Assembly: GCA_945898095.1 (NCBI GenBank)
Contig: CAMDHE010000050.1
Location: 1-32,470 of the forward strand
Direction of reading: 5' to 3'
From: Roseateles toxinivorans
GTDB taxonomy: Bacteria; Pseudomonadota; Gammaproteobacteria; Burkholderiales; Burkholderiaceae_C
Length of the DNA: 32,470 nt
Position numbers and translations under genes: made by a program. A model generated the notes under the pieces. It made no database searches. It was given only the letters and a program-made list of their open reading frames with translations, and was not told the origin of the DNA. This document shows, piece after piece, positions 1-15,880 of this stretch. Each line of letters starts with the position of its first letter. Within the stretch, counting starts at the first letter, position 1.

Positions 1-44
1 CCAAGCGCCTTTTCTGCTGTAACCTTGGGGTCCAATTCCACCAT
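1..44 (-). CDS. Start of an unidentified gene, truncated by window edge
   Basis: An ATG on the minus strand at 44 opens a reading frame that runs off the window after 14 codons (MVELDPKVTAEKAL). It begins only 2 bases after the stop codon of the NadC-like gene, and the purine-rich AAGGGA just upstream of that stop is a plausible ribosome binding site. It is therefore probably the fifth gene of the same operon. Too little is visible to recognise a family. Confidence 0.55.
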   Translation of the reverse strand, partial: MVELDPKVTAEKAL

Positions 45-46
45 TT

Positions 47-934
47 TCACTGTCCCTTCTGGGCAAGAGCAATGTCGCGCAACGCACTCGCCTTCAATTG
101 CCCGATGTCGATACTAATGTCGACAACCTTGGCACTGTGCACTATGCCGCCGATTGCGATCTGCTTGACACCGGTCTTGGCGATTGGCACCACCGTTTCT
201 TCATTGACTCCCCCAGTGCCAACCGTCCAGGCTTTGTCCCCGACTATCTTTACCGCCTCAGCCAATACATCTATATCCATATTATCGAACATAATGCATT
301 CGACACCACAGGCGAGCGCCTCCCTGGTATCTTCAAGCGTTTCGCACTCGCACTCTATCTTCAGCGTATGTTGGCCACGTTCGCGTAACTGGGCGACTGC
401 AGGGCTAATACCACCGGCCATCTTGATATGGTTATCCTTGAGCAAAACTGCATTGTGCAGGCTGTACATGTGCGGAATTGCTCCGCCTTTTCGCACGGCA
501 TATTTTTGCAGCACCCGGATCGGTGGTATGCCCTTCCTTGCATCGGAAATTTTCGTGCCATATGGCTTGACCAGATCAACATATTTTCGCGCTTCGGTCG
601 CGATACCAGAAAGGTGCTGCAGATAATCCAAAGCCAGACGTTCGCCGGCTGCAAAGATCCAGGCGGGCGCCTTGATCGTCATGACGACATCACCGGGCCT
701 GCAAAATTCGCCATCCTGTTTGAGAATTAAAATATCACTTTCGGGAGCCAGAATTTCAAATGTCATTTTCGCAACTGGAATTCCACACAGAATTCCCGGC
801 TTCTTCATATATATATTGGCGGTCATTATCTGCTTATGACCATCCAGGAATTGTGACGTATGATCGCCGTGCATCAACTCCTCGCGAATTCCCCATTCGA
901 TGATTGGGCGAATTATGCTTGGTATCAAATCCAT
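47..934 (-). CDS. NadC-like (quinolinate phosphoribosyltransferase family) enzyme, divergent
   Basis: This 295-residue protein has the length and layout of nicotinate-nucleotide pyrophosphorylases, which join quinolinate and PRPP to make nicotinate mononucleotide with loss of CO2. Family signatures visible are GDHTS (23-27), ERLALDYLQHLSGIAT (98-113), LQKYAVRKGG (142-151), LLKDNHI (164-170), IECECET (193-199) and MFDNM (215-219). Several substrate-contact motifs deviate: the usual TRKTxPG is ARKGIPP (132-138), the usual His-Arg pair is His155-Met156, and the usual SGG is TGG (240-242). It may therefore act on another base, as the NadC-like ModD proteins are thought to do. The ATG at 934 has a good AGGA site upstream and overlaps the end of the esterase gene by 10 bases, so it sits within the operon. 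It is unlikely to be the housekeeping nadC, which normally lies with nadA/nadB; this is inferred from context. Confidence 0.8.
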   Translation of the reverse strand: MDLIPSIIRPIIEWGIREELMHGDHTSQFLDGHKQIMTANIYMKKPGILCGIPVAKMTFEILAPESDILILKQDGEFCRPGDVVMTIKAPAWIFAAGERLALDYLQHLSGIATEARKYVDLVKPYGTKISDARKGIPPIRVLQKYAVRKGGAIPHMYSLHNAVLLKDNHIKMAGGISPAVAQLRERGQHTLKIECECETLEDTREALACGVECIMFDNMDIDVLAEAVKIVGDKAWTVGTGGVNEETVVPIAKTGVKQIAIGGIVHSAKVVDISIDIGQLKASALRDIALAQKGQ

Positions 935-1941
935 TTGCTTTTCCTTTGCTTATCTACCACACCAAAAAGAGCAAGGCGTAGCGCCTCACATGAGAAATTC
1001 GCCATCTTCTTCACATCCTCGCTGCTGGACAGCGCCCGGAAAAATCCATGCGTCAATCGTTCGGCATTGCGAATCACAACGCTAGTACCGGCGAGTTGCA
1101 GTCGCGCTGCGTAGTTGCGCCCATCATCGCGTAGCGGATCATATTCGGCGGTAATAATATGGGCTGCCGGTAACCCACCAAGCCCGTCTGCAACCAACGG
1201 AACAGCATAGGCTACTGGGGGCACATCTATTTCTGCCAGATAGTTTTTCCAGAAATACCTCATTTCGCGGCCGGATAGTATCGGCGCATCCGAATTTTCC
1301 ATATATGACAAGGTTTCAAAGTTCGAGCCCATGGCGGGATAATTAAGTAGCTGTAACAAGATCTCCGGGCCTCGCCTATCGCGCGCAGCGATTGCACATG
1401 CGGCAGCTAGATTGCCACCGGAACTCTCGCCGGCAACTGCGATTCTCGATGTATCAATACCATTAGCCGAACCCTGTTCTGCCAGCCATGTCAAAGCGGC
1501 ATAGCAATCATTGAAGCCGGCAGGAAATGGATGCTCCGGCGACAGTCGATATTCAGGACTAACAACGATAGCTCCGACTTCCTTCACGTATAGATAGGCT
1601 AGCTCAGAAGACTGCTCAGGACTACCGTACATCCAACCGCCGCCATGGCAATAAAGTATCACTGGCAACAGACCGACTGCAGCCGTCGGGCGGAACACAA
1701 GCAAGCGCAGCGGCAGGCCATCGCTGGATATATTTATCCACTCGACTGTTACACCGTCCGGGATAATCTGCAGATTTTCAGCCCGTACCTTGGCTACCTT
1801 TTCACGGCGACTCACGACATCCACAAGGTCCAGCGACTCAGACCGGTCAGCAATTGCTTTCTCGAGATAAGGCAAATACGTCGGGTCAATGTTCATTGCT
1901 CGCATTGTATTTTTCCCAGCCGCGTCATTTGCAAGGTTCAC
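925..1941 (-). CDS. Alpha/beta hydrolase, HSL-type esterase
   Basis: A 338-residue alpha/beta hydrolase of the hormone-sensitive-lipase (Aes/lipase IV) family, which hydrolyses ester bonds of small substrates. The oxyanion-hole motif HGGGW is at 99-103, the nucleophile elbow GESSG at 171-175 (Ser173), the acid Asp268 in AEYDPLRDDG, and His298 in THGFF. All catalytic parts are intact. No signal peptide is seen, so it is probably cytoplasmic. The start used is a GTG that overlaps the psuG-like stop as GTGA, suggesting translational coupling. An ATG 12 codons further in (MRAMNIDP), with a weak GGGA upstream, is a reasonable alternative. The substrate cannot be told from sequence, but its position between a PsuG-like and a NadC-like gene suggests it removes an ester group from an imported compound or intermediate. 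Confidence 0.85.
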   Translation of the reverse strand: MNLANDAAGKNTMRAMNIDPTYLPYLEKAIADRSESLDLVDVVSRREKVAKVRAENLQIIPDGVTVEWINISSDGLPLRLLVFRPTAAVGLLPVILYCHGGGWMYGSPEQSSELAYLYVKEVGAIVVSPEYRLSPEHPFPAGFNDCYAALTWLAEQGSANGIDTSRIAVAGESSGGNLAAACAIAARDRRGPEILLQLLNYPAMGSNFETLSYMENSDAPILSGREMRYFWKNYLAEIDVPPVAYAVPLVADGLGGLPAAHIITAEYDPLRDDGRNYAARLQLAGTSVVIRNAERLTHGFFRALSSSEDVKKMANFSCEALRLALFGVVDKQRKSKWI

Positions 1942-2849
1942 CTTGCGTGGGCATCAAGCCGCCGCCCTGCAAAGGCAGCGGCGATCTGGCCGGCAGCCTT
2001 TGCAACTGCCAATATTGCCGTCTGGCGTATCTTGTCAGCTTGACCGGAAGTCATCTGGTCCAGTTGTGCGAGCAGGAAAGGCGTCAGCGCCTTTCCCGTT
2101 ATTCCGGCCTGTTTGGCTGCAGTCATGGATTTCTCGACCAGTTCCTCCAGCAACTCGGGCGCCATCTCGCTGGGTGGCGCAATCGCTACCACCACGCCCG
2201 TTTCAGAACCTAGTTGCCAGTGAACATCAAGAAGTGCTGCAACCTGTTCCGGCTCATCCAGTCGATCGATTGAGAGCTGGGTCGATCCAAAGTAGGCCGG
2301 AAAGTTGCCGGTACGATAGCCGATAACCGGTACTGACTTCGTCTCAAGGAATTCAAGGGTGCGCGGCAGGTCCAGAATGATCTTGGCACCCGTACAGACA
2401 ATTGCCACCGGATTTTCTGCAATCTCCTCCAGGTCGGACGAAGCATCAAGCGTCTCCTCGTAGCCCCGGTGAATGCCACCAATGGCACCCGTCATGGCGA
2501 CATGTATGCCGGCGAGACGTGCGCAAAAGATTGTTGCCGAGACTGTTGTCAACGCGCAGTTGCCTTTGACGAGCGCCATTGCCAGCTCACGCTTGCCGGC
2601 CTTTGATACCGATTTGGCCCGTCCGATCTTCTCGAGTTGTGCCGCGTCAGGTCCGATGACAATCTGCCCGTCAATAACGGCCACGAGAGCAGGAATCGCA
2701 CCTTGCGAACGGATCGTCTGGCTGACTTCCTCAAACAGAGTCAGATTATCCGGGTACTTTCCTGCCGGCGAGATTATCACTGACTCGATTGCAACAACCG
2801 GCAGGGCTCGAGCGCAGGCGTCAGCTACTTCGAGTCCAATTTGTAGCAT
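1938..2849 (-). CDS. PsuG-like pseudouridine-5'-phosphate glycosidase family protein
   Basis: About 303 residues, close to the usual length of PsuG, which reversibly splits pseudouridine 5'-phosphate into uracil and ribose 5-phosphate by breaking a C-C glycosidic bond. Matching motifs are ESVIIS (Glu22), TTVSATI, TGAIGGIHRG, SSDLEE (Asp139), CTGAKIILDL (Lys156, the position of the catalytic lysine of the family), VPVIGY and GKALTPFLL. The C-terminal stretch that carries conserved asparagines in PsuG reads ADKIRQTAILAVAKAAG here, without Asn, so the substrate or mechanism may differ. The related IndA-type proteins show the family has roles beyond pseudouridine. A TTG two codons upstream (2855) is an alternative start. 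No PsuK-type kinase is visible nearby. The gene lies 35 bases after the binding-protein gene and overlaps the esterase gene by 4 bases. Confidence 0.82.
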   Translation of the reverse strand: MLQIGLEVADACARALPVVAIESVIISPAGKYPDNLTLFEEVSQTIRSQGAIPALVAVIDGQIVIGPDAAQLEKIGRAKSVSKAGKRELAMALVKGNCALTTVSATIFCARLAGIHVAMTGAIGGIHRGYEETLDASSDLEEIAENPVAIVCTGAKIILDLPRTLEFLETKSVPVIGYRTGNFPAYFGSTQLSIDRLDEPEQVAALLDVHWQLGSETGVVVAIAPPSEMAPELLEELVEKSMTAAKQAGITGKALTPFLLAQLDQMTSGQADKIRQTAILAVAKAAGQIAAAFAGRRLDAHAR

Positions 2850-2884
2850 TATCAATTACCCAATCTCAGGTGAACGGGGGTTGA

Positions 2885-4087
2885 CTATTTCTTTGCGTAC
2901 TCGCAGTCCCCGTCCTGCATCGGTCTAAAGGCATCGTTTCCTGGAACTTTCGCGATCAAATTATAATAATCCCAAGGCCGCTTCGATTCCTCGGGCTTCT
3001 TCACGGAATACAAGTACAGATCACGAATGACGCGTCCATCCTTGCGTATGAATGCATTCTTCGTGAAAAAGTCATTTATTTTCATCTCACGCATCTGGTT
3101 GGCCACCTTGTCGGGGTCGGTCGTTCCCGCTGCGGTCACAGCCTTGAGGTAATGGGTCACCGCACTATAAATACCAGCCTGCAGCATTGTTGGCATGGAG
3201 CGGTGCTCCTTCAAGAAGCGCTCGGACCATTCACGCGTCTGTGCATCGGTATCCCAATAGAAAGCTTCAGTCAAGAGCAGTCCTTGAGCGCGCTGCAATC
3301 CAATCGCGTGAATATCAGTGATAAAGACCAGCAAGCCAGCCATTTTTTGGCCGGATTTGGTTATCTGGAATTCTCCCGCCTGTTTGATGGCGTTGCTCGT
3401 ATCGGCGCCGGCATTTGCCAAAGCGATTATCTTTGCTTTTGAAGCCTGGGCTTGCAGCAGGAATGAAGAGAAGTCATTATTGCCGAGTGGCGTTCGCACG
3501 CCGCCGAGAACCTTGCCGTTGTTGGCAATCACGACATCGCGGGTGTCGCGTTCCAAAGCGTGCCCGAAAGCGTAGTCAGCGGTAATGAAATACCAGGTGT
3601 CATTGCCAGCTCGGACTGCAGCGCCGCCTGTACTTTTGGCGAGGGCGTAGGTGTCATAAATCCAATGGAATCCTGTCGGTGAACAGGCTTTTCCAGTCAG
3701 GTCGGATGAACCACCGCTCACCACAATATCGATTTTTTTCTTTGTACTTGAAACTGATCTGACCGCCAGAGCAGCACTTGAGTTTCCGAGTCCGACCACA
3801 GCGGTCACGCCATCAACGTCGTACCAACTCCTCGCCATCGAGGAAGCAATGTCAGCCTTGTTCTGGTGGTCACCCGTCACCAGCCCGATCGGGTTACCGA
3901 GGGCTTGTCCACCAAAATCCTGGATCGCGAATTTTGCCGCGATCACGGCACCGGGGCCTGTGGAGGCCGACAGAGGTCCCGACATGTCTTCCATGATTGC
4001 TATTTTTGCGACTTGTTGCGCAAAGGATTCCACTCCGACGCAGGATATTGCCGCGACTCCTAGAACTATCTTCCGGAACGTTTTCAT
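2885..4087 (-). CDS. ABC transporter substrate-binding protein, branched-chain amino acid (LivK) type
   Basis: A 400-residue periplasmic binding protein (Peripla_BP_6 / LivK type) that would capture a small molecule for an ABC importer. A signal peptide MKTFRKIVLGVAAISCVGVESFA is followed by a likely cleavage before QQ. The mature part opens with KIAIMEDMSGPLS, and later segments such as GVTAVVGLGNSSAALAV and FITADYAFGHALERD fit the two-lobed fold. The start at 4087 is chosen because AAGGAG lies six bases upstream; an in-frame ATG ten codons earlier lacks this and would spoil the signal peptide. It is the first gene of the low-GC operon. No permease or ATPase gene is in the window, so these may lie beyond the left edge. 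This binding-protein class also takes urea, amides and aromatic acids, so the ligand is open. Confidence 0.88.
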   Translation of the reverse strand: MKTFRKIVLGVAAISCVGVESFAQQVAKIAIMEDMSGPLSASTGPGAVIAAKFAIQDFGGQALGNPIGLVTGDHQNKADIASSMARSWYDVDGVTAVVGLGNSSAALAVRSVSSTKKKIDIVVSGGSSDLTGKACSPTGFHWIYDTYALAKSTGGAAVRAGNDTWYFITADYAFGHALERDTRDVVIANNGKVLGGVRTPLGNNDFSSFLLQAQASKAKIIALANAGADTSNAIKQAGEFQITKSGQKMAGLLVFITDIHAIGLQRAQGLLLTEAFYWDTDAQTREWSERFLKEHRSMPTMLQAGIYSAVTHYLKAVTAAGTTDPDKVANQMREMKINDFFTKNAFIRKDGRVIRDLYLYSVKKPEESKRPWDYYNLIAKVPGNDAFRPMQDGDCEYAKK

Positions 4088-4265
4088 GATCGTCTCCTTT
4101 GACTTTTTTGAATTCAATTGATGAGGATTTTTATACCTGAATAAATACTGAGAGGCTTTGCTGTAAATATATTTTTAATTTTCGAAAATCCCTGGGCTTG
4201 TATTCTGCACGCGATCGTGAGCACTGAAGGCCTGCCAGGCTAGCTCCCGGAATGCATGTTTAAAC

Positions 4266-4314
4266 ACAATAAATATTTACAACAAATATACAATTATTAT
4301 TGTAATTTATTGTT
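4266..4314. repeat. Nested AT-rich palindrome, candidate operator
   Basis: A perfect 9-base inverted repeat (ACAATAAAT at 4266-4274, ATTTATTGT at 4305-4313) encloses a second palindrome TACAAT-TATT-ATTGTA (4289-4304). The stretch 4281-4314 as a whole is an imperfect palindrome beginning AACAAAT and ending ATTTATTGTT. It lies about 200 bases upstream of the binding-protein gene, where a regulator could bind. No T-run follows that would mark an intrinsic terminator, although DNA this AT-rich can form palindromes by chance. Confidence 0.45.
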
Positions 4315-4387
4315 ACTTTGTGAAGAGTTTTTAACGCCGTTAGAAAAGACTATCGCTTGCACGGATCGACCTTTTTCAGATGATTGG

Positions 4388-4460
4388 CGCTGCATTCCGC
4401 AGCGACAACTCATTGCTGGCTTGCCAGTCGATTTGACTTAGGTTGCAGCATCCATGCTGC
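4388..4460. repeat. Three short GC-rich palindromes in a row
   Basis: CGCTGC-ATTCC-GCAGCG (4388-4404), CTGGC-TT-GCCAG (4416-4427) and GCAGCAT-CC-ATGCTGC (4445-4460) follow each other at roughly 28-base intervals. They sit at the edge between the AT-rich region and the GC-rich core sequence. None is followed by a T-run. They may be protein-binding sites or remnants of a small repeat; no function is asserted. Confidence 0.3.
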
Positions 4461-4702
4461 CTGTTCCCGATTTAAATACTTCCTGCGCGGCAGTCTACGC
4501 CCAGCAAGGTATTTATTACCAAAAAATATAGGCGGGCAAGCGTTTTTACTTATAGGGTTTTCGAGATATTATTCAATTTACTGTCCGACTGAACAGTGGC
4601 CTAGTCTGGATCGCACACATGGTGCCCCTTGAAGTGATGAGGGCGCAACTGGTTCTGCTGACAAGCAGCCCAGAACCGAAGTCAGTCTGCCCCGGGGAGC
4701 GC

Positions 4703-5965
4703 TCAGCGCCGCCCGAACATCATCTGCCTGGCCAGGGCCTTTTTCAGTGGCGGCAAGGCCTGCAGAACGGCCAGCGCCAAGCCGCGCGCAGCCGGCAGGC
4801 CGGGCCAGCGCCAGGCAAAGCTTCTGGCGAGGAAATCGGTGGCCGCAATCATCACCCAGCGGTCCGGTGCGCGCTGCCATTCGACCCGCTGGAGCGCTGC
4901 GTCGATGTCGCCGCTGCTGCGCAAGGCATCGACCAGGGCATAGACATCGCGCAGCCCCAGATTGAGCCCCTGGCCCGCCACCGGATGGAGCGTCTGGGCG
5001 GCGTTGCCGATGCGGACGATGCGGCGCTCGACCAGGCTGCGCTCGGCATTCAATCCAAGCGCAAAGCATTTCAATCCACTGATGCCTTGCAATTTACCAA
5101 CAGCTGCGGGCAACTGACTTTGCAGCACCGCCAGACGCTGGTTGTCGCTCAAGCTGGCCACCTCGTCATCGGCTTGTGGCATGCACCAGACCAAAGCTGC
5201 ACGGCGCGGTTGGCCAGCCACCGGACGCAAGGGCAGCAAGGCCAGTGGCCCGTTGCGGGTGAACCGCTCATAAGCCACGCCGACCGGACTGTCATCAGCC
5301 AGAACCAGCGTACCGACCCAGGCGTTTTGTAAATAGTCCCGGCTGACGGCCTTGCGCGCCTGGTCGGCGAATACACCGCCTTCGGCGACGACAGCCAGGT
5401 CGAAACGCTCGGCAATGCCGGCATCGACTTCAACGCCAGTCTCCGGCGCCTCCAGCGGCTTCAAGTTTTTTACCGGGGAGCCGAATCGACTGCTCAGTCG
5501 GCCCGGCTCAAACGCCACAAGTCCATTCCAGGCAGCCTGCAGCGGCGCGACCAATTGGCCGTAGCTGATCACGGCACCAAGCTGCGCCACACCCTGCTCG
5601 GCCGCACTTAAACGCACCTCGGGTTCTCCCGATGCGCCGAACAGCGGATGTCGCAAGGTCGGCGGCGCCTGACTGACATTCACCTGCAGAATCGCCTGGG
5701 CCAGACCTGGATCCCAAACCGACAAGCGCTGCAGCAATTGCACGCTGCCGAGCGACAGGGCCAGGGTGCGGGGATCGCCCGTGACATCCTTGTCGATCAA
5801 TCGGGCATCGAACAGGCTGATGCGAAGCTGCGGCAGCAATTGCGCCGCCAACAGCGCCAGGCTCAGGCCGACCGGACCGGCACCGATGATCGCCAGATGC
5901 AGCGCCGGCTTGGAGCCTGCGGGAAGTGGCGAATCGGCATCGGGGTCAAGGTTTCGGGTCTGCAT
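4703..5965 (-). CDS. ubiH: UbiH/COQ6-family FAD-dependent hydroxylase (ubiquinone biosynthesis)
   Basis: A 420-residue flavoprotein monooxygenase of the UbiH/UbiF/COQ6 family, which hydroxylates the aromatic ring of ubiquinone precursors with O2 and NADPH. The FAD-binding Rossmann motif IIGAGPVG is at 26-33. The second FAD motif, [19 protein letters not shown], is near residues 320-338 and has the Asn form typical of UbiH rather than the GD form of many relatives. [17 protein letters not shown] also matches the family. The exact hydroxylated ring position cannot be settled by motif, so the symbol is tentative. The start is uncertain: the ATG at 5965 removes a poor leader, but an in-frame ATG at 6031 exists, and neither has a strong ribosome binding site. 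It is divergent from the aldo/keto reductase gene, with 84 bases between. Confidence 0.8.
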
Positions 5966-6049
5966 GGATGGGCAGCTTACCGCATGACCTTGCAAGCCGC
6001 GCTGACCCCGGTCTGCGTTACCCTTGCGCAAATTTTTGAAGGATCAGTC

Positions 6050-7030
6050 ATGCAATATCGTCGTCTGGGCCGCAGCGGCCTGCAGGTTTCCGAGCTGTCA
6101 CTGGGCTCTTGGGTGACTTATCACAACCAGGTCGATAGCCAGGGCGCTACCGAGATGCTGGCTGCCGCCTATGACGCCGGCATCAACTTCTTCGACAACG
6201 CCGAAGTCTATGCAATGGGCCGCAGCGAAATCTTGATGGGTCAGGCTTTCAAGGCGCTGAAATGGCCGCGACTGAACTACATCGTCTCGACCAAGTTTTT
6301 CTGGGGCATCGATCGCGAGGGCAACACCGTCAATCGCCGCGACACCCTGAACCGCAAATACCTGATGCAGGCGATCGACGGTTCACTGGCCCGGTTGCAG
6401 CTCGACTTCGTCGATCTGGTCTATTGCCATCGCCCTGACCCGCAAACGCCGATCGAGGAAACCGTGCGGGCGATGAGCGACATGATCAGCCAGGGCAAGG
6501 CGCTTTACTGGGGCACCAGCGAATGGTCGGCAGACGCCATCCGCAGCGCTTACGAGATCGCCGACCGCCACCATCTGCACAAACCGGTGATGGAACAGCC
6601 GCAATACAACCTTTTGCACCGCGGCAAGGTCGAGCAGGAATACGCGCAGCTGTACGCGGAAATCGGTCTGGGCTTGACCACCTGGAGCCCGCTCGCGTCG
6701 GGGTTGTTGACCGGCAAATACCAGCAGGGCATTCCTGAAGACAGCCGGGGCGCGCTCGCTTCGATGGCTTATCTGCACGACACCCTGACCGATCCGGCCA
6801 AGAACAAGGCCGTTGCCGGGCTGGCCCAGATCGCTGCCGAACTCGGCGGCAATGTGGCCCAACTGGCGATTGCCTGGGTCAACAAGAACCCGCATGTATC
6901 AACTGTGATCCTGGGCGCCAGCAAACTCGCGCAGTTGCAGGACAACCTCGGCGCCCTCGCCTTGACACCGAAATTGACGCCCGAAGTGATGGCCCGCATC
7001 GACGCCTTGACCTTGCCGCTGTTGGACTGA
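6050..7030 (+). CDS. Aldo/keto reductase, Kv-channel beta-subunit-like
   Basis: A 326-residue TIM-barrel NADPH-dependent oxidoreductase closest in pattern to the AKR6 group (potassium-channel beta subunits and bacterial YghZ-like proteins), which reduce aldehydes and ketones. The catalytic tetrad is visible as Asp49 (FFDNAEVY), Tyr54, Lys82 (STKFFWG) and His127 (CHRPDPQTP). [29 protein letters not shown] and [14 protein letters not shown] are characteristic of this group. The ATG at 6050 has GAAGGA seven bases upstream; the reading frame is open further 5' but that part overlaps ubiH and has no homology-like features. It converges with the hemerythrin gene, with 54 bases between. The natural substrate is unknown. 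Confidence 0.9.
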
Positions 7031-7084
7031 ACCTGCGCCAGAAGTCTTGCAAACCCTGGGCCCATGGCGTAAGTGAGCGCCTGC

Positions 7085-7669
7085 TCAGAGTGCCGGCCCC
7101 AGGCCGATCGGCGCCGGCACGGCGGCCAGCACTTTCTGGAACAGGCTGCGGTATTGCTCTTCAGGCGGGTGCCCGGTCAAAGGATCACGGTTGGCGGCAA
7201 AAGCCGCGTCGAGTTCTTCCCAGTCATCGGGTTGCAGCACCCTCAGGGCCAAAGGCAGGATTTGTTGTTCTTCAACTTCCATATGCCGCAGGTAAGCAGA
7301 GACATATTCCTGCGCTGCAAGCTCGAAGGCGTCGCGGCGCGCTTCGCCCATCACCTCGAAGGCCAGCAATGCATGCTCGAGATCGCGGATCGCATATTCG
7401 CCGCGCGCATGGTCATGGTCGAGCATGTCCAGGGTCTCACGGTGCGTGGGTGCACGGGCACGCAATTTCGGAAACAGCAACTGGCTTTCCTTCGGGTGGT
7501 GCAGGCGCTCGGGAAATTCGTCGACATAAAAGAGCATCGCTCGCAGCACCGAAAAGTCCGGCAGGCTGCCATGACGCCGGTGCTCGGCCAACAGCAACGG
7601 TATCGACCTGAGCATTGCCGCCAGGGCGCTATGTTCTTCACGAATGATGGTCAATGTCAAAGGCTTCAT
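7085..7669 (-). CDS. Hemerythrin HHE domain protein
   Basis: A 194-residue helical protein with a hemerythrin-like cation-binding domain. Candidate di-iron ligands are His13 (REEHSAL), His57/His58 (LHHPKE), Glu61, His85/His87 (LDHDHARGE), His129 (YLRHMEVEE) and Glu133. Such proteins bind O2, NO or iron, or protect against oxidative and nitrosative stress; which applies here is not decidable. The ATG at 7669 is preceded by GGAGC at good spacing. An in-frame upstream extension of 20 residues would intrude on the divergent transketolase promoter and lacks a ribosome binding site. It is transcribed on its own, convergent with the aldo/keto reductase. Confidence 0.87.
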   Translation of the reverse strand: MKPLTLTIIREEHSALAAMLRSIPLLLAEHRRHGSLPDFSVLRAMLFYVDEFPERLHHPKESQLLFPKLRARAPTHRETLDMLDHDHARGEYAIRDLEHALLAFEVMGEARRDAFELAAQEYVSAYLRHMEVEEQQILPLALRVLQPDDWEELDAAFAANRDPLTGHPPEEQYRSLFQKVLAAVPAPIGLGPAL

Positions 7670-7797
7670 CGGCTTGCTCCTGCACAAATGCGTTAGCCTG
7701 AACTCCGGCCGCCTGCTCGGTCTTGTCATTGATCAAGCCTACGTCTTTCTGCGGCCAAGTAAACTTAGCGTTTTTGCATTTTCCGGACCTATACAAC

Positions 7798-9834
7798 ATG
7801 GCTTCAATCGCTGCTAGCAACCCCACCACGATGGCCAACGCCATTCGCGCCTTGGCGATCGATGCCGTGCAACAAGCCAACTCAGGACACCCGGGCGCGC
7901 CGATGGGCATGGCCGACATCGCCGTGGCCTTGTGGACCCGCCATCTGCGCTTCAATCCGACCAATCCGCATTGGGCCGGACGCGACCGCTTCGTGCTTTC
8001 GAACGGACATGGCTCGATGCTTCTCTATGCCGCCCTGCATTTGAGCGGCTACGACCTGCCGATGGCCGAGTTGAAGAACTTCCGCCAGATGCACAGCAAA
8101 ACGCCCGGCCACCCCGAACTCGGTGTCACGCCAGGCGTCGAGACCACCACCGGGCCGCTCGGACAGGGTTTTGCCAACGCAGTCGGGATGGCCCTGGCCG
8201 AGAAGCTGCTGGCGCGTGAATTCAACCGCGAGGCCGGCACCATCGTCGACCACCGCACCTATGTCTTCATGGGCGACGGCTGCATGATGGAAGGTATCAG
8301 CCATGAAGCGGCTTCTCTGGCCGGTGCCTGGAAGCTGAACAAGCTGATCGCGATCTATGACGACAACGGCATCTCGATCGACGGACAGGTTGGGCCCTGG
8401 TTCGCCGACAACACCGCTGAGCGATTCAAAGCCTATGGCTGGAACGTGGTCGGCCCGGTCAACGGCCATGACATCGACGCCGTCGATGCTGCAATCGCCC
8501 AGGCCAAGCTGAGTCAGGACAAACCAACGCTGGTGATCGCCAAGACCCATATCGGCCATGGCAGCCCGAACCGCGCGAACACCTCCAAGGCCCATGGCGA
8601 GCCGCTCGGTGCCGAAGAGATCGCATTGACTCGCGCAGCGCTCGGCTGGACCCATGCACCGTTCGTGATTCCGCCCGAGGTTTATTCCGGCTGGGACAGA
8701 AAAGCCGCCGGCGCCAAGCTCGAAGCCGCCTGGGACCAGGGTTTTGACGCCTACGCCGAAGCGCACCCGGAGTTGGCCGCTGAATTCCAGCGCCGCATGG
8801 CCGGCATCTTGCCGACCGACTTCACCCAGACCGCCGTCGATGCGGTGATCGCGGCTCATACCAAGGGCGAAACAGTCGCCAGCCGCAAGGCCAGCCAGAT
8901 CGCGCTCGAGGCATTCACTGCCGCCGTGCCCGAGATGCTGGGCGGCTCGGCCGACCTGACCGGCTCGAACCTGACCAACACCAAGGCCGCGACCGCTTTC
9001 CGTATCGAAGCTGACGGGGGCTCGAACGGCGGGCGCCACATCAACTACGGCGTGCGTGAATTCGGCATGGCCGGCATCATGAACGGACTGGCGCTGCATG
9101 GCGGCTTCATCCCCTATGGCGGCACCTTCCTGACTTTCAGCGACTACAACCGCAATGCGATCCGCATGGCCGCGCTGATGAAGCTGCGCGTGATCCATGT
9201 CTTCACCCATGACTCGATCGGCTTGGGCGAGGACGGCCCGACGCACCAGTCGATCGAACATGTCGCCTCGTTGCGCCTGATCCCCGGCCTCGATGTGTGG
9301 CGTCCGGCCGACACCGCCGAAACTGCGGTCGCCTGGACCTTCGCGCTCGGCAATGCCAGTCGCCCGAGCGCGTTGGCCTTGTCACGCCAGAACCTGCCTT
9401 ATGCGCCCAAAGCCGGGCTCGACGAAATCAGCCGCGGCGCTTATGTGCTGAGCGAACCCGCAGAGGTCGGACTGAAGAAAAAGCCCAAGGCCGTCATCAT
9501 CGCCACCGGCTCCGAAGTGCAGTTAGCGCTGCTGGCGCAGGTCGCACTGGCCAAGGAAGGCATGCCGGTGCGGGTCGTGTCAATGCCCTCAACGAATGTA
9601 TTCGACCGCCAGGATCGCAAGTACAAGAAGGCCGTGCTGCCCGAAGGCCTGCCGCGCATTGCAGTGGAAATGGGCGTCACCGATGGCTGGTGGAAATATG
9701 GCTGCGCGGCGGTCATCGGCATCGATACCTATGGCGAATCGGCACCGGCGCCGGTGCTGTTCAAGCATTTCGGCTTCACCACCGAGAACCTGGTCGCAAC
9801 CGTCAAGCAAGTGCTGGGCAAGAAAAAACGTTGA
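7798..9834 (+). CDS. tkt: Transketolase
   Basis: A full-length 678-residue transketolase, which moves two-carbon units between sugar phosphates in the pentose phosphate (and Calvin) pathway using thiamine diphosphate. Seen are [12 protein letters not shown] (His31), the ThDP/Mg motif starting [12 protein letters not shown] near 159-170 and ending in [10 protein letters not shown], the catalytic Glu421 in REFGMAG, and [13 protein letters not shown] with [14 protein letters not shown]. The ATG at 7798 is chosen over an in-frame upstream start because the protein then begins, as in the family, shortly before [12 protein letters not shown]. The ribosome binding site is weak. GAPDH follows after 53 bases, pointing to a carbon-metabolism operon. 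Confidence 0.97.
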
Positions 9835-9875
9835 TTTCAAATCGGGTGCTGGTCACCCATTATTTTGTTGATTGA

Positions 9876-10886
<1,011 letters not shown>

Positions 10887-10906
10887 GGCGAACCGTTCCA
10901 ACCCTC

Positions 10907-11101
10907 AAACCCCGCTCTTTAGGATGCTCTGCATGACCCCTCACGGCTGGTGCTAGCGCGGCCTCGGGCGGTCTGCGGCGTTGCATTTCTTGCCAATAGC
11001 ACGCGCTATTGGCCGCAAACTGCGCCTTGCATCCCATCCCGATCCGCACTACACACAGTCGCGTTGAGTTATGCAGAGCATCCTTAACAGCGGGGTTTTT
11101 T
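10907..11101. repeat. Inverted-repeat element with internal palindrome (MITE- or REP-like)
   Basis: Two 28-base arms, 10907-10934 and 11071-11098, are inverted copies matching at 26 positions; both carry AGGATGCTCTGCAT and AAACCCCGCT separated by a variable 4-base spacer. The similarity weakens inward (GCATGACCC against GCATAACTC). In the centre is a perfect palindrome GCCAATAGC-ACGC-GCTATTGGC (10992-11013). The right arm runs into six T residues (11096-11101), so on the plus strand it could also act as a terminator for gap. No open reading frame fits inside. It resembles a non-autonomous mobile element or a dispersed intergenic repeat; no second copy is in this window. Confidence 0.65.
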
Positions 11102-11185
11102 CACTTATGGCAACCGAGTTTGAGTTTCTTTGCAATGAGTTGCTGGAGCTGCAATAAACTGTGCCCCAAATTGGAGACCGGGTGC

Positions 11186-13903
11186 ATGAAATACTTTTTG
11201 CTTATGTTTCTGTCAACATTGCTGTTGGCCGCACAACCGCTGCAGGCTGCAGTCGAGGAATCTGCGCGCGTCATCGTCCGCTTCAAGCCCATGGCGCCTA
11301 GCTTGCGCGCCAATCCGATGCGACCTAACGCGACCCGCCTTGAGGCACGCGATATGGCCCAACTCAGAGCCACTGGTCTGGGTCTCCGCACGGGGCGTGC
11401 CTTGAGCGCCCGCAGAAGCCTTGACAACCGCACCCATGTATTTACCGCCCAAGGAATAAGTTCGGCAGCGCTGGTCAATCGCCTAGCGCAGGATAGCGAG
11501 GTCGAACTGGCAGTGATTGACCAGCGGCGGCGGCACACCTTGCTGCCTAATGATCCGCTCTATGTTGGCAATAACGGCATAGCACCGACCTCGGGTGCGG
11601 GTTCAGCCAACGGTCAGTGGTATTTGAAAACACCAAGCAGCGTTCCCGGTCAAGTCGTTTCAAGCATCAATGCGCCAGCGGCCTGGGATATTACAACGGG
11701 CGTTTCCTCGATCGTCGTGGCTGTTCTCGACACCGGGGTGCGCAAGGATCACCCGGATCTGCTTGGTCAATTCGTCGGCGGTTACGACATGATTGCCGAC
11801 GATGCGACATCCGGCGATCTCAGCAGCGGTCGTGACAGCGATGCAACTGACACCGGCGACTGGGTCAGCCAGGCTGACATCGACAGCGGGACATTGAGTG
11901 GTTGCACTTCTAACGACATCGGCAACAGCAGCTGGCATGGCACCCGCGTCTCGGGTCTGATCGCTGCAGCCAGCAACAACGCCCGTGGCATTGCCGGCAT
12001 TGCCTTCGGCACAAAAGTCCTGCCGGTGAGGGTGCTGGGTAAGTGCGGAGGCTGGGACTCTGACATCCAGGCGGGCATGTTGTGGGCCGCTGGCATCGCG
12101 GTACCAGGCCTTCCGGCAAATCCGAACCCGGCCAGGGTGTTGAATATGAGCCTTGGCAGCGGCGGCACTTGTGGAACTACTGGAAGCGGCGCGGTCTATC
12201 GCGACACCATCAACCAAGTGCTGGCGAAGGGCGCAGTCATCGTCGCTGCGGCCGGCAACACCACCGGACAGGCGGTGGGTCTGCCGGGCAACTGCCCCGG
12301 TGTCATCGCTGTAACCGGCCTGCGCCATGTCGGTAGCAAGGTTGGTTTTTCGAGCGTGGGCCCCGAGGTAGCGATCTCGGCACCCGGCGGCAATTGCATC
12401 AATATTGGAGCCGGTGAGCCCTGCCTTTACCCGATGCTCAGCACGACCAACAGCGGCCTGAATGGCCCAGTAGCTGCTGAAGATGCCTACACGAACAATT
12501 CTGCCTCAGTAGGTACCAGCTTCTCTGCGCCGGTGGTCAGCGGCACGGTGGCCTTGATGCTGTCGATGCGGCCCACGCTGACCCCGGCCGAGGTAATGTC
12601 CCTGCTGAAGAAAACCGCCCGTCCGTTCGTGACGACCGGGGCCACGGCCGACACCAAACAATGCGTCGCGCCGGTCAACAATGTCGACCAGCTTGAATGC
12701 TATTGCACCACCAGCACCTGCGGCGCCGGCATGCTCGACGCCAGCGCTGCCGTGCTGGTCGCCAATGCGACGACGCCTCAGTTGATCAACTTTACCCAAC
12801 CTGCGAGCCAATTTCTCAGCGCCGGCACGCTGACCTTGTTCGCCAGTTCAAGCTCAGGGCTGGCCGTCAGCTTCAGCTCGAGCACGCCGACGGTCTGCAC
12901 GGTCAGCGGCAGCCTGGTGACGCTGGTCACTACAGGCAATTGCACAGTGACCGCCAACCAGGCCGGCAACGCCATCTATCTGCCCGCAACAGCGGTGTCT
13001 TACAGTTTCACTGTCCTGGCTGCGGCAGCCTTGACAGCGCAGACGATCACCTTCGAGCTGATCGCAGCGCAAACCTTCGGCATCACGCCAGTCAATTTGA
13101 GCGCCAGCGCTTCATCCGGACTGGCTGTCACTCTTGCTTCAACGACAAGCTCGGTCTGCACGGTCAGCGGCAACAGCCTGACATTGCTGGCAGCAGGCAA
13201 CTGCTCGGTCACGGCCAGCCAGAGCGGCAACTCGAGCTACGCCGCCGCGCCCTCAGTCACGCGCAGCTTCAGCGTGCTGCAAGGCACGCAGACGATCAGC
13301 TTCGCTGCCTTGAGCGATCAGGTGCTGGGCGGCGGCGTGATCGCCGTCAGCGCACGTTCAAGCGCGGGCTTGGCCGTCTCGATGGCTTCGACCACGCCGA
13401 CGGTCTGCGCGCTCAGCGGCAGCAATTTGAGCCTGCTCGCCGCAGGCACCTGCACGCTGACGGCCAACCAGGCAGGGAATGCGAATTACAGCTCGGCTAT
13501 CAGCGTCACACGAAGTTTCGCGGTGGCACCGACGCCACAGACGATCACTTTCGCCGCAATCGCCGACCGACAACTGGGATCGGCCGCCTTGAGTTTGAGC
13601 GCCACCTCAAGCGCGAGTCTGGCGATCAGCTTCGCCTCGAGCACAACCGCGGTCTGCAGCGTCAACGGCGCGGCCTTGACGCTGCTGGCGGTGGGCAACT
13701 GCACAATCACCGCTTCACAGGATGGCAACGCCAGCATCGCCGCGGCTACGCCGGTGTCGCGCACTTTCGCGGTGACTGCAGCGCCCAGCAGCGGGAGCGG
13801 CGGCGGTGGCGGCGGGGCTTTCAGCGGCTTCTGGCTCGCTTTGCTGGCCTTGGCCAGCTTCACCCTGCAGCGCCGGCCGAATCGGGCTTCAGCGAGCCGC
13901 TGA
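11186..13903 (+). CDS. Secreted subtilisin-like (S8) serine protease with C-terminal repeats and GlyGly-CTERM-like tail
   Basis: A 905-residue secreted protease. The signal peptide is MKYFLLMFLSTLLLAAQPLQA. An N-terminal part (ARVIVRFKP onward) resembles an inhibitor-type propeptide. The S8 catalytic triad is Asp182 (AVLDTGVRKDHPD), His251 (SWHGTRVSG) and Ser445 (GTSFSAPVVSG). From about residue 531 to 867 come four repeats of about 84 residues, each with two cysteines. The end is a Gly-rich stretch (GSGGGGGGAFSG), a hydrophobic segment (FWLALLALASF) and a basic tail (LQRRPNRASASR), the layout of GlyGly-CTERM sorting signals processed by rhombosortase. The ATG at 11186 is chosen because of the signal peptide and GGAGA upstream; the longer open frame starts inside the inverted-repeat element. 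Its last 15 bases overlap the convergent SPOR-like gene. Confidence 0.92.
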   Translation: MKYFLLMFLSTLLLAAQPLQAAVEESARVIVRFKPMAPSLRANPMRPNATRLEARDMAQLRATGLGLRTGRALSARRSLDNRTHVFTAQGISSAALVNRLAQDSEVELAVIDQRRRHTLLPNDPLYVGNNGIAPTSGAGSANGQWYLKTPSSVPGQVVSSINAPAAWDITTGVSSIVVAVLDTGVRKDHPDLLGQFVGGYDMIADDATSGDLSSGRDSDATDTGDWVSQADIDSGTLSGCTSNDIGNSSWHGTRVSGLIAAASNNARGIAGIAFGTKVLPVRVLGKCGGWDSDIQAGMLWAAGIAVPGLPANPNPARVLNMSLGSGGTCGTTGSGAVYRDTINQVLAKGAVIVAAAGNTTGQAVGLPGNCPGVIAVTGLRHVGSKVGFSSVGPEVAISAPGGNCINIGAGEPCLYPMLSTTNSGLNGPVAAEDAYTNNSASVGTSFSAPVVSGTVALMLSMRPTLTPAEVMSLLKKTARPFVTTGATADTKQCVAPVNNVDQLECYCTTSTCGAGMLDASAAVLVANATTPQLINFTQPASQFLSAGTLTLFASSSSGLAVSFSSSTPTVCTVSGSLVTLVTTGNCTVTANQAGNAIYLPATAVSYSFTVLAAAALTAQTITFELIAAQTFGITPVNLSASASSGLAVTLASTTSSVCTVSGNSLTLLAAGNCSVTASQSGNSSYAAAPSVTRSFSVLQGTQTISFAALSDQVLGGGVIAVSARSSAGLAVSMASTTPTVCALSGSNLSLLAAGTCTLTANQAGNANYSSAISVTRSFAVAPTPQTITFAAIADRQLGSAALSLSATSSASLAISFASSTTAVCSVNGAALTLLAVGNCTITASQDGNASIAAATPVSRTFAVTAAPSSGSGGGGGGAFSGFWLALLALASFTLQRRPNRASASR
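12776..13785 (+). repeat. Four tandem ~84-residue repeats within the protease gene
   Basis: Approximate units are 12776-13035, 13036-13287, 13288-13533 and 13534-13785. Each begins QxIxF (INFTQP, ITFELI, ISFAAL, ITFAAI), continues with a serine-rich SSxxLAVSxxS segment, a VCxVSG-type motif, an LLAAGxC motif and ANQAGNAxY, and ends in a SFxV strand. The two cysteines in every unit are about 21 residues apart and could form a disulfide. The pattern suggests beta-sandwich, Ig-like stalk modules outside the cell. DNA identity between units is only partial, so they are old duplications rather than recent expansion. Confidence 0.8.
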
Positions 13904-14569
13904 AGCTGCCGATGCTGCCGTTGGCGGGGTCGCGCAACTCTTGAAGCCGGCGCGCAGCGCTTCGTCCTTCAAGCCGCGCAAGCCTTGCGCCTGCCCGGCT
14001 TCGACCTGAGCCAGCACCAGGCTGTGGCGTTTCGTCGGCGACTGCAATCTCGACACCAGCAAACCCTTCAGCGCGCGTTTCTCAAGGGTATCGAGCGCTG
14101 CAGCCGCCGCTTTTTCGCTGTCATGGCGACTCAAGAGCAAAAACTTCAGCTCACCCGCAGGCAGGGCTTCAAAGCCGAGATTCAGTCGCCGGATGGTTTC
14201 TTCCTTGCGGGCCAGCATCTCGGGCGCCAGCGGCGCAGTCACCACCGCCCAGACACCGGGCAGATTCTGCTGCTGGGCCTGCATGTCGCTCGCGGCAATG
14301 CCGGCATGAAGCAGCGCCGCCTGGGCGGCCAGCAGCGCAGCTTCGCTATCGACCGGCCCGAACTCGACGCAGGTCTTCGCCTGCAGTGCCTGCAAGTCCT
14401 GCGGCTTGAGCAGCGTGATCATTTCGGGGTGCACCTGCCTGGCCATCCGTTCGGGCTCGCGATCGCCGCGCGCTTTCAGGCCAACGATGTCGTCAAGCCA
14501 GCCCTGAGTCCAGCCAAAGAACAAGGCATTGACGAGCAAAAGAATCAGAACCAGCCAGCGCAGCAGCAT
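13889..14569 (-). CDS. Membrane-anchored SPOR-like protein
   Basis: A 226-residue protein with one N-terminal membrane helix (MLLRWLVLILLLVNALFFGW) and a periplasmic part. CVEFGP (67-72) and the following alternating pattern, ending in WAVVTAPL and LNLGF, fit a divergent SPOR-type fold, which in other proteins binds denuded peptidoglycan at division sites. The C-terminal tail is Ala-rich. The ATG at 14569 lies 1 base after the birA stop, with GGAGG at ideal spacing, so it is the last gene of a SET - birA - SPOR run. The domain call rests on pattern and on my knowledge that such a protein often follows birA in Burkholderiales; it is not certain. Confidence 0.7.
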   Translation of the reverse strand: MLLRWLVLILLLVNALFFGWTQGWLDDIVGLKARGDREPERMARQVHPEMITLLKPQDLQALQAKTCVEFGPVDSEAALLAAQAALLHAGIAASDMQAQQQNLPGVWAVVTAPLAPEMLARKEETIRRLNLGFEALPAGELKFLLLSRHDSEKAAAAALDTLEKRALKGLLVSRLQSPTKRHSLVLAQVEAGQAQGLRGLKDEALRAGFKSCATPPTAASAASAAR

Positions 14570-14570
14570 C

Positions 14571-15380
14571 TCAAGCCTCCCTGTCAGCAACCAGGCGCAG
14601 GCTGACTTCGCCGCCGCTGACCTTGTGCATCACCCCTGCCGCCGTCTCCAGCAGCAACTCACCGCTGGCTGTGACGCCGCGCGCAATGCCTTGCAGCCTG
14701 CCGGCGCTGACCTGGCAGCCTTGGGTCAGGTCGCGCCGCGCGAAAGTTTGCTGCCAAGCTGCGAAGCCGCTTCGAGGAAAGTCCAGCAAGGCCTGCAGCA
14801 GGGCCGGCGCCAACTGTGCGAGCACCTCGGGAGCGATCACGCCGGGCTGGATTTCGCTCAATGAAGCGAAGCCGGTACTGAATTGATCCTGTGGCTTGTC
14901 ATCAAGCTTGCTGATATTCAGACCGACGCCGACCACCACGGCGCGCTCGGCACCGCAGGCCTGGGTTTCGATCAGGATGCCGCCGAGCTTGCGTCCGTCG
15001 AGCCAGATGTCATTGGGCCATTTCAACTGCAAGCGCGGCTGGCTGCCGGCGGGTTCGAGCGCATCGGCAATCGCGCAACCCAGCGCCAAACTCAGCCCCG
15101 ACCAATCCTGCAGGGCCAGGCTCAGCCCGATTGAAAAAGTCAGCGAGCGGCCCGGGCTGGCCAGCCACTCCCGGCCCATGCGGCCACGACCCGCGGTTTG
15201 TTGCTCGGCCACCAGCAAGCAGGGCAGGCTGTCGGGGCCCTGTTCGCGCAGGCGATCAAGCAAGGTGCTGTTGGTTGACCCAAGGCTGGCAGCCACCTCG
15301 ACGTCGATGGCCGGGCAAAGCCGTGCCAACTGCTGCTGCAGCGCTGCGGCTTGCCAGTCGAGGGTGGGTGAAGGGCTCAT
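14571..15380 (-). CDS. birA: Biotin-[acetyl-CoA-carboxylase] ligase, short form
   Basis: A 269-residue biotin protein ligase that activates biotin with ATP and attaches it to the carboxyl-carrier protein of acetyl-CoA carboxylase. The biotinyl-AMP loop GRGRMGREW begins at 64, STN lies at 35-37, KWPNDIW at 120-126 is followed by GRKLGGILIE, and VVVGVGLNI follows further on. It lacks the N-terminal helix-turn-helix of E. coli BirA, so it should not repress biotin genes. The ATG at 15380 overlaps the stop of the SET-domain gene as ATGA, implying translational coupling. An upstream in-frame start at 15428 would lie inside the SET gene and is less likely. Confidence 0.92.
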   Translation of the reverse strand: MSPSPTLDWQAAALQQQLARLCPAIDVEVAASLGSTNSTLLDRLREQGPDSLPCLLVAEQQTAGRGRMGREWLASPGRSLTFSIGLSLALQDWSGLSLALGCAIADALEPAGSQPRLQLKWPNDIWLDGRKLGGILIETQACGAERAVVVGVGLNISKLDDKPQDQFSTGFASLSEIQPGVIAPEVLAQLAPALLQALLDFPRSGFAAWQQTFARRDLTQGCQVSAGRLQGIARGVTASGELLLETAAGVMHKVSGGEVSLRLVADREA

Positions 15381-15880
15381 CGCCGTTTTGGCGCCAGCAT
15401 CGTGCCGCGGCAGACTTCGCTGCCGCAATGGCAGGCGAATTCCTTTTTCAGCTTGGCCGTGTAGCGCTCGTCGATGGTCAGGCCATAGTCGTAGAACAAC
15501 TCCTCGCCGGGCAGCAGATCGCGCAGCGCCTTGATGTAGACGCGGTTGTCGACCTCGTCGGCCTCGCAGTTGGGGTCGCAGCCATGGTTGATCCAGCGCG
15601 AACTGTTGCCGCCGACCAACGCGTCGATGACGCGGCCATCTTCGATGTGGAAGTAGAAGGTATGGTTGGGCTGCTCAAGGTCATGCGGGTGGCGCAACAT
15701 CGCCAGATCCCAGCTGATCAGCTCACCGGTGTATTCGATCAACACCTCGCCAGCGACGATGCCGGTCAGCGTATAAACGCCCCGGCCATGGACACCCGAA
15801 TTGCGCACCTGGATACGGCGCCCGCCCGCCGCCTTGCTGGCTGGCGTCTCCCTCGAATTCTTGCGGTCGGCTGGCGTCAT
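15377..15880 (-). CDS. SET-domain protein (putative lysine methyltransferase)
   Basis: A compact 167-residue SET-domain protein. It opens with a VRNSGVHGRGVY segment (25-36) typical of the SET N-terminus, then EYTGELI (49-55), the pseudo-knot motif RWINHGCDPNC (95-105) and ELFYDYG (127-133), and ends with a post-SET cysteine cluster CHCGSEVCRGT (150-160) that with Cys105 could bind zinc. SET enzymes transfer methyl groups from S-adenosylmethionine to protein lysines; bacterial targets are mostly unknown. It is the first gene of the run ending in birA and the SPOR-like gene and is divergent from topB across 120 bases. A basic N-terminus precedes the domain. Confidence 0.9.
   Translation of the reverse strand: MTPADRKNSRETPASKAAGGRRIQVRNSGVHGRGVYTLTGIVAGEVLIEYTGELISWDLAMLRHPHDLEQPNHTFYFHIEDGRVIDALVGGNSSRWINHGCDPNCEADEVDNRVYIKALRDLLPGEELFYDYGLTIDERYTAKLKKEFACHCGSEVCRGTMLAPKRR

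Follow-up and report, generated by a model that had tools for sequence, protein, structure and literature searches.

A low-GC accessory operon with NadC-, PyrF-, HisI- and PsuG-like genes in Roseateles toxinivorans and its possible role in the breakdown of an N-heteroaromatic carboxylate

At one end of a 32,470-nt stretch of DNA from Roseateles toxinivorans (contig CAMDHE010000050.1; hereafter the window, whose base 1 is base 1 of this contig, C50), genes for a NadC-like phosphoribosyltransferase, a PsuG-like protein, an esterase-type hydrolase and a periplasmic binding protein are arranged in one operon. This locus raises the question of which compound a bacterium would handle with such a combination of enzymes. 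The operon is real, maintained and accessory in the genus. In our judgment the chances are about even that it is catabolic and that its products phosphoribosylate an N-heteroaromatic carboxylate, decarboxylate it, open the ring and recover the sugar. This interpretation draws on a pattern common to the NadC-, PsuG- and HisI-like proteins, in which catalytic residues are kept and recognition residues are changed, on the presence of further NadC, PsuG, HisI and PyrF genes elsewhere in the same genome (4.71 Mb in 209 contigs), on the recurrence of NadC-PyrF-X-ALDH (aldehyde dehydrogenase) in a second lineage, and on purifying selection in the window genes. The gene order NadC-PyrF-HisI-ALDH matches the proposed order of the corresponding reactions.

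Gene content of the operon and its relatives

As stated in the original prediction, one strand, here the minus strand, encodes four genes in full and the beginning of another. The first gene (2885–4087) encodes a branched-chain-amino-acid-type periplasmic binding protein (Peripla_BP_6, Pfam 329 bits), to which 3i09 is the solved chain closest in sequence (E 1.9e-127). It is followed by a PsuG-like paralogue of the Indigoidine_A family (1938–2849; Pfam 294.1 bits), an HSL-type alpha/beta hydrolase that is an esterase or amidase (925–1941; Abhydrolase_3, 214 bits) and scores under the cut-off of all nine NCBIfam families matched, the NadC-like phosphoribosyltransferase with QRPTase_N and QRPTase_C domains (47–934), and the start of a PyrF-like gene (1–50), which runs off the end of the contig. 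The binding protein and PsuG-like genes are separated by a gap of 35 bases. The predicted tight spacing of three junctions was borne out, as the PsuG-like and esterase genes overlap (GTGA), the esterase and NadC-like genes share 10 bases, and the NadC-like gene overlaps the fifth gene (GTGA). The predicted drop in GC content was equally clear: positions 1–4117 have a GC content of 0.527, compared with 0.603–0.653 in 474 other stretches of 4,117 bases sampled every 50 bases from window position 4700 onward (52.7% versus 62.7%). At third codon positions, GC was 0.50–0.59 in the four operon genes and 0.70–0.79 in four neighbouring genes.

The full gene set was read from a relative. A scan of genome contigs with the PsuG protein retrieved a single relative, the locus L018 of an uncultured Burkholderiales metagenome-assembled genome, to which positions 1–4117 of the window are 91% identical at the DNA level. 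The encoded proteins share 95% (binding protein), 92% (PsuG-like), 90% (esterase) and 99.3% (NadC-like) identity. L018 has seven operon genes in the order binding protein, PsuG, esterase, NadC, PyrF, HisI and ALDH, the last three being a PyrF-like gene (12803–13573; OMPdecase, 43.5 bits), a HisI-like gene (13584–13994; PRA-CH, 59.8 bits) and an aldehyde dehydrogenase gene (14007–15473; 546 bits). The fifth gene of the window was assigned by codon match to L018, since 14 of its 16 visible codons specify the same residue as the start of the L018 PyrF-like gene; the last two genes and most of the third-last gene were seen in L018 only. Reading on from the start of the fifth gene, as had been suggested originally, yielded PyrF-, HisI- and ALDH-type genes by way of L018; the permease, ATPase and kinase genes to be looked for there are not among the seven operon genes.

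A second lineage was found in one genome (G137) from another family of the same order. Its locus, L100, contains on one strand genes for an amidohydrolase, a NadC-like and a PyrF-like protein, a HAD hydrolase, an aldehyde dehydrogenase and a second amidohydrolase, with overlaps of one base (NadC/PyrF), one base (PyrF/HAD) and four bases (HAD/ALDH). Identity to the operon proteins is 50% for the NadC-like protein, 49–50% for the PyrF-like protein and 51% for the aldehyde dehydrogenase. GC content is 0.69–0.76 in four of the L100 genes and exceeds 0.95 at third codon positions; because this is far from the GC content of the window operon, the likeness does not reflect a recent copy. The part of the operon seen twice is therefore NadC-PyrF-X-ALDH, with the HisI-like gene (L018) or the HAD hydrolase gene (L100) at X. 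The association that recurs, in one other genome, is that of NadC, PyrF and ALDH, and not the combination of PsuG, NadC and esterase for which a search had been suggested.

Kept catalytic residues and altered recognition residues

The operon NadC copies pass the cut-off of the curated nadC model TIGR00078 (198.4 bits) with 246.4 bits for the window protein and 286.6 bits for that of L100. The comparison started from 21 loci, which were the best-scoring family matches plus two and not a random draw; three were excluded because their aligned part contained a stop, leaving 18 ordinary copies. The operon copies retain most basic residues of the pocket, namely the equivalents of R138, K139, H160 and K171. 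The equivalent of Arg161 (Met156 in the window), in contrast, is Met, Met and Ile in the three operon copies and Arg in all 18 ordinary ones. The available text of PMC3633916 describes Arg161 as key for quinolinate and as belonging to the 3-carboxylate pocket. Including this position, all three operon copies depart from the ordinary NadCs at 17 columns in which ≥90% of those 18 share the same residue, and the motifs RKT, GGG and NHIA are changed to RKG, GGA and NHIK. In a tree of 21 NadC rows the operon copies form a separate clade (support 100/99); how this clade branches with respect to L045, a long row, is uncertain (73/42). The window gene is also not the only nadC of its genome, a possibility that had been raised before: a second NadC on contig C54 scores 258.8 bits against the same cut-off, keeps Arg161 and may, with some doubt, be taken as the housekeeping copy. 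In this C54 protein Gln occupies the His160 position, and its gene abuts a gene of the fumarylacetoacetate hydrolase family (L019:4860-6430). No nadA or nadB was noticed in the 10 kb read around it, although no search aimed at these genes was made.

The PsuG-like protein resembles PsuG/YeiN and AlnA in family membership and in retaining the equivalents of the Schiff-base Lys166 and of Glu31 (aligned at GAK and IES). It differs from them at the Asn289 equivalent, which is Arg277 in the window, Arg in L018 and Asn in 16/16 ordinary PsuGs (the PsuG numbering of Asn289 was transferred by hand from the alignment), and in its HGMP loop, which reads PAGK or PVGK. Asn289 makes the single hydrogen bond to uracil in the covalent complex, as given in the accessible part of PMC7722734. 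An Arg at this position would suit a carboxylate. Furthermore, 57 of the 133 columns conserved in the 16 ordinary PsuGs are changed, one of them to a gap, and there is no psuK-type kinase partner among the seven operon genes. The second PsuG of the genome is encoded on contig C42.

The HisI-like protein of L018 shares with phosphoribosyl-AMP cyclohydrolase (HisI, PF01502) the metal ligands, three Cys and three Asp (DCDDD, the Cys of HICGHG and the Cys of TCF aligned with the canonical copies), whose roles are outlined in the part of PMC8102479 at hand. Its nearest solved chains are those of HisIE (6j22/6j2l, E ~9e-24). It scores far under the equivalog cut-offs (92.0 bits against 187, and 81.1 against 126), and of 41 columns that are conserved across 16 ordinary copies it departs from 22, in three cases by a gap. 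For the plant enzyme, the same excerpt (PMC8102479) has the loop 107WTKGETS113 hold the AMP phosphate and assigns the 100SRS102 region to the N1-phosphoribosyl. The operon copy has WAMGEDD in this loop, with K109 replaced by Met and S113 by Asp, both residues being invariant in the 16 ordinary copies; a milder change affects the T112 position (Glu in ordinary copies, Asp here), and the 100SRS102 region reads RRT. We infer that the changed AMP-phosphate loop may fit a substrate with one phosphoribosyl group, as NadC followed by PyrF would deliver. One further HisI is encoded on contig C4 of the own genome.

The PyrF-like proteins match the orotidine 5'-phosphate (OMP) decarboxylase family PF00215 with 43.5 (L018) and 45.1 bits (L100; cut-off 27) and have its VGR motif near the end. 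They remain under the OMP decarboxylase equivalog cut-offs, with 51.9 of 208 and 26.1 of 92.3 bits for L018 and 50.2 of 208 and 26 of 193 bits for L100. K54, D83, K86 and D90 are present in both copies. One PyrF is encoded on contig C17 of the own genome. Single-sequence AlphaFold models of the L018 PyrF-like and HisI-like proteins reached a mean pLDDT of 41.7 and 42.6, respectively, and were not used.

Maintenance, distribution and insertion site

Ratios of nonsynonymous to synonymous substitution rates (dN/dS) between the window and L018 were 0.074 (binding protein), 0.12 (PsuG-like), 0.14 (esterase) and 0.010 (NadC-like), so that all four window genes look maintained; three neighbouring genes had values of 0.08–0.11. 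The dN/dS of the NadC-like gene was seven to fourteen times below those of its operon partners. An ordinary PsuG copy occurs in all 18 genomes of the genus, and the operon copy additionally in two of them, namely the genome studied here and G1219, identified as the genome of L018 by contig number, position and 100% identity. Based on this distribution and the low GC content, the operon was probably acquired by horizontal transfer, as previously proposed. Since synonymous divergence (dS) from L018 is 0.31–0.36 in the operon and 0.22–0.29 in the three neighbours, the transfer was not very recent and seems older than the split between the window and L018 lineages.

Among 200 genomes of the family, 88 matched the NadC-like protein at 1e-40, all at ≤40% identity apart from the own operon copy. 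The PyrF-like protein was found in 1/379 genomes of the order (G137) and in 1/5 genomes of that match's family, which was the same genome, and in none of 369 genomes of the class (E 1e-10) or 398 of the phylum (E 1e-8); the class, phylum and order samples overlap, and the counts are not additive. There was no match to the PyrF-like protein on plasmids, and 5 and 72 pattern matches in viral contigs yielded none that was confirmed. Searches of plasmids returned 317 records for NadC, all below 60% identity (with 42% as the highest value in the 40 listed), and 612 for HisI, again all below 60% (among the 30 listed, 22 were named HisI/HisIE and eight had no annotation).

The operon is separated from ubiH by a region (4088–4702, strand not assigned) that forms the left edge of the low-GC stretch; identity to L018 is 75% from position 4118 to 4702 (436 identities over 579 aligned bases, with 39 columns of gaps), as against 91% in 1–4117. 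A weak promoter-like site lies at 4324–4296 on the minus strand; the scan found eight such sites with 3.9 expected, and no weight is placed on it. In a relative from the genus (G801, locus L057), the 3' flank of ubiH carries genes for a carbon-nitrogen hydrolase, YhdP and GlnE, and a search of this 19.9-kb locus with the operon proteins gave no match. In this genus, the 3' flank of ubiH may be a hotspot at which different inserts are taken up. In L018, the aldehyde dehydrogenase gene is followed on its 3' side by an open reading frame with weak family matches (lipoprotein-like by eye) and then, in opposite direction, a GST gene; other L018 reading frames, named by eye alone and located on the other strand, encode a DMT-like permease, a rhomboid-like protein and GlnE.

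Several observations concern the wider surroundings. In G677 from the same genus, a cas3 gene (Cas3_HD, Cas3_C) adjoins ubiH on the side of the operon (L056:7626-10364). The GST-glnE block has opposite orientations relative to ubiH in L018:16582-20847 and in L057:94-3577 of G801. Within the window, a large subtilase gene (Peptidase_S8, 964 aa) follows the GAPDH gene at 11009–13903, and its L018 counterpart shows ~79% DNA identity compared with 91% for window positions 1–10918.

Proposed pathway and alternative explanations

In the proposed pathway, the binding protein would catch the compound and the esterase would free the acid. The NadC-like enzyme would then transfer phosphoribose from PRPP to the ring nitrogen and remove the neighbouring carboxylate, after which the PyrF-like protein would remove a second carboxylate beside the ribosylated nitrogen. 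The HisI-like protein could open the ring beside the N-ribosyl bond by means of a zinc-bound water, the PsuG-like protein could take off ribose 5-phosphate through its lysine, and the aldehyde dehydrogenase might oxidise the aldehyde that the opened ring leaves behind. The roles of PsuG and HisI could fall in L100 to the HAD hydrolase and the amidohydrolases. L100 also holds genes for a CoA-transferase, an enoyl-CoA hydratase and two TctC binding proteins, which would suit a catabolic route for a carboxylate. Dipicolinate (pyridine-2,6-dicarboxylate) would fit as substrate, because its two carboxylates sit on either side of the nitrogen; this is guesswork based on the enzyme families, and we regard it as unlikely to be right. 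The route resembles histidine biosynthesis (HisG-HisE-HisI) in its logic, in which a phosphoribosyl on a ring nitrogen is followed by hydrolytic ring opening (PMC8102479, consulted in part). Unlike the operon, that pathway is biosynthetic and begins with ATP, and neither HisG nor HisE is among the seven operon genes.

A number of points weigh against a catabolic route of this kind. Every reaction, the order of the reactions and the substrate are inferred. PsuG is known for acting on C-C bonds, and a PsuG-like protein removing ribose from an N-ribosyl compound would be new. The catalytic motif of OMP decarboxylase is DxKxxD; the PyrF-like motif D83-H-Q-K86-A-G-P-D90 has two extra residues and does not align cleanly with it, and Leu208 occupies the position of Gln in the GxQGG of solved enzymes. 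In the HisI-like protein, the His beside the zinc Cys, which is present in 16/16 ordinary copies, is shifted by one position (CGH for CHT), and the assignment of the two phosphate regions in HisI is disputed between PMC8102479, as far as its excerpt goes, and earlier models cited there. The PyrF-like protein has no match in the own genome, where the contig ends inside the gene, and the presence of the last three operon genes in this genome is presumed from L018. None of the seven operon genes in L018 encodes a permease. Moreover, PsuG-, HisI-, esterase- and binding protein-like sequences gave no tblastn match in the 19.9 kb of L100, so that support from two lineages is limited to NadC-PyrF-ALDH, and the second of these lineages is a single genome. 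The CoA genes of L100 are on the opposite strand and may have no relation to the route.

Different functions were weighed against the same data. Biosynthesis of an unusual nucleotide or C-nucleoside-like compound, with the NadC-, PyrF- and HisI-like proteins catalysing tailoring steps, appears unlikely. AlnA (solved chain 4ex8), a member of the PsuG family, makes a C-glycoside, and an accessory gene set would agree with such a role, but resistance, export and carrier-protein genes are missing from the seven operon genes, a periplasmic binding protein heads the operon and an aldehyde dehydrogenase closes it, and both amidohydrolases and TctC binding proteins occur in L100. It seems distinctly improbable that a C-nucleoside is salvaged or broken down, with PsuG first freeing the base from a C-nucleotide and the NadC- and PyrF-like proteins acting on it afterwards: PsuG precedes NadC in the operon and has retained its lysine and glutamate, but the contact of Asn289 is lost, no kinase is among the seven operon genes and the L100 locus gave no PsuG match. 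Pseudouridine salvage itself was rejected on account of the lack of an operon kinase and the changed base contact.

It is very improbable that the locus contains ordinary NAD and pyrimidine genes, that is, an extra nadC with companions adding to quinolinate use. The NadC-like protein does pass the NCBIfam equivalog cut-off for nadC (246.4 versus 198.4 bits), and the C54 copy has Gln at His160 with neither nadA nor nadB noticed nearby (no search aimed at these was made), so that either copy might be the housekeeping one. Yet Arg161 is replaced in both lineages and kept in the C54 copy, and the PyrF- and HisI-like proteins score far under their equivalog cut-offs; ordinary NAD synthesis as the leading explanation was rejected on account of the loss of Arg161 in two lineages together with the second NadC. 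Quite unlikely, finally, is a route of the same logic for a heterocycle other than pyridine (imidazole, pyrimidine or a fused ring) with another order of steps, in which the esterase or the HAD hydrolase and amidohydrolases open the ring. L100 speaks for it by keeping NadC-PyrF-ALDH and having a HAD hydrolase and two amidohydrolases with no HisI or PsuG match. None of the results argues against this explanation, which is less specific than the breakdown of an N-heteroaromatic carboxylate proposed above.

For the catabolic route, the ribosyl handling of an unusual heterocycle that had been suggested originally is supported as an interpretation, and the statement that no pathway with such genes had been described agrees with the open PMC literature, in which searches aimed at this gene set or logic gave no description among the papers listed, judged by title and opening of the abstract; one may exist elsewhere. 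The route of the picolinate pic cluster is oxidative. The operon would be similar to it in serving bacterial use of a pyridine carboxylate (PMC10142695, seen in excerpt), but it contains no hydroxylase or oxygenase gene and has phosphoribosyl enzymes instead. On a tentative view, somewhat doubtful in our estimation, bacteria may dismantle aromatic N-heterocycles non-oxidatively by converting them to a nucleotide with PRPP, decarboxylating this a second time with a PyrF relative, opening the ring with a zinc cyclohydrolase without oxygen and recovering ribose 5-phosphate, thereby reusing folds of NAD, pyrimidine and histidine biosynthesis in a single degradation pathway. If true, this would represent an oxygen-independent route that breaks down N-heteroaromatic acids after turning their ring into a nucleotide, and three anabolic nucleotide enzyme families would have been recruited together. 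The automatic name 'nadC' would then be doubtful for a clade that passes the curated model though its quinolinate-binding arginine is gone.

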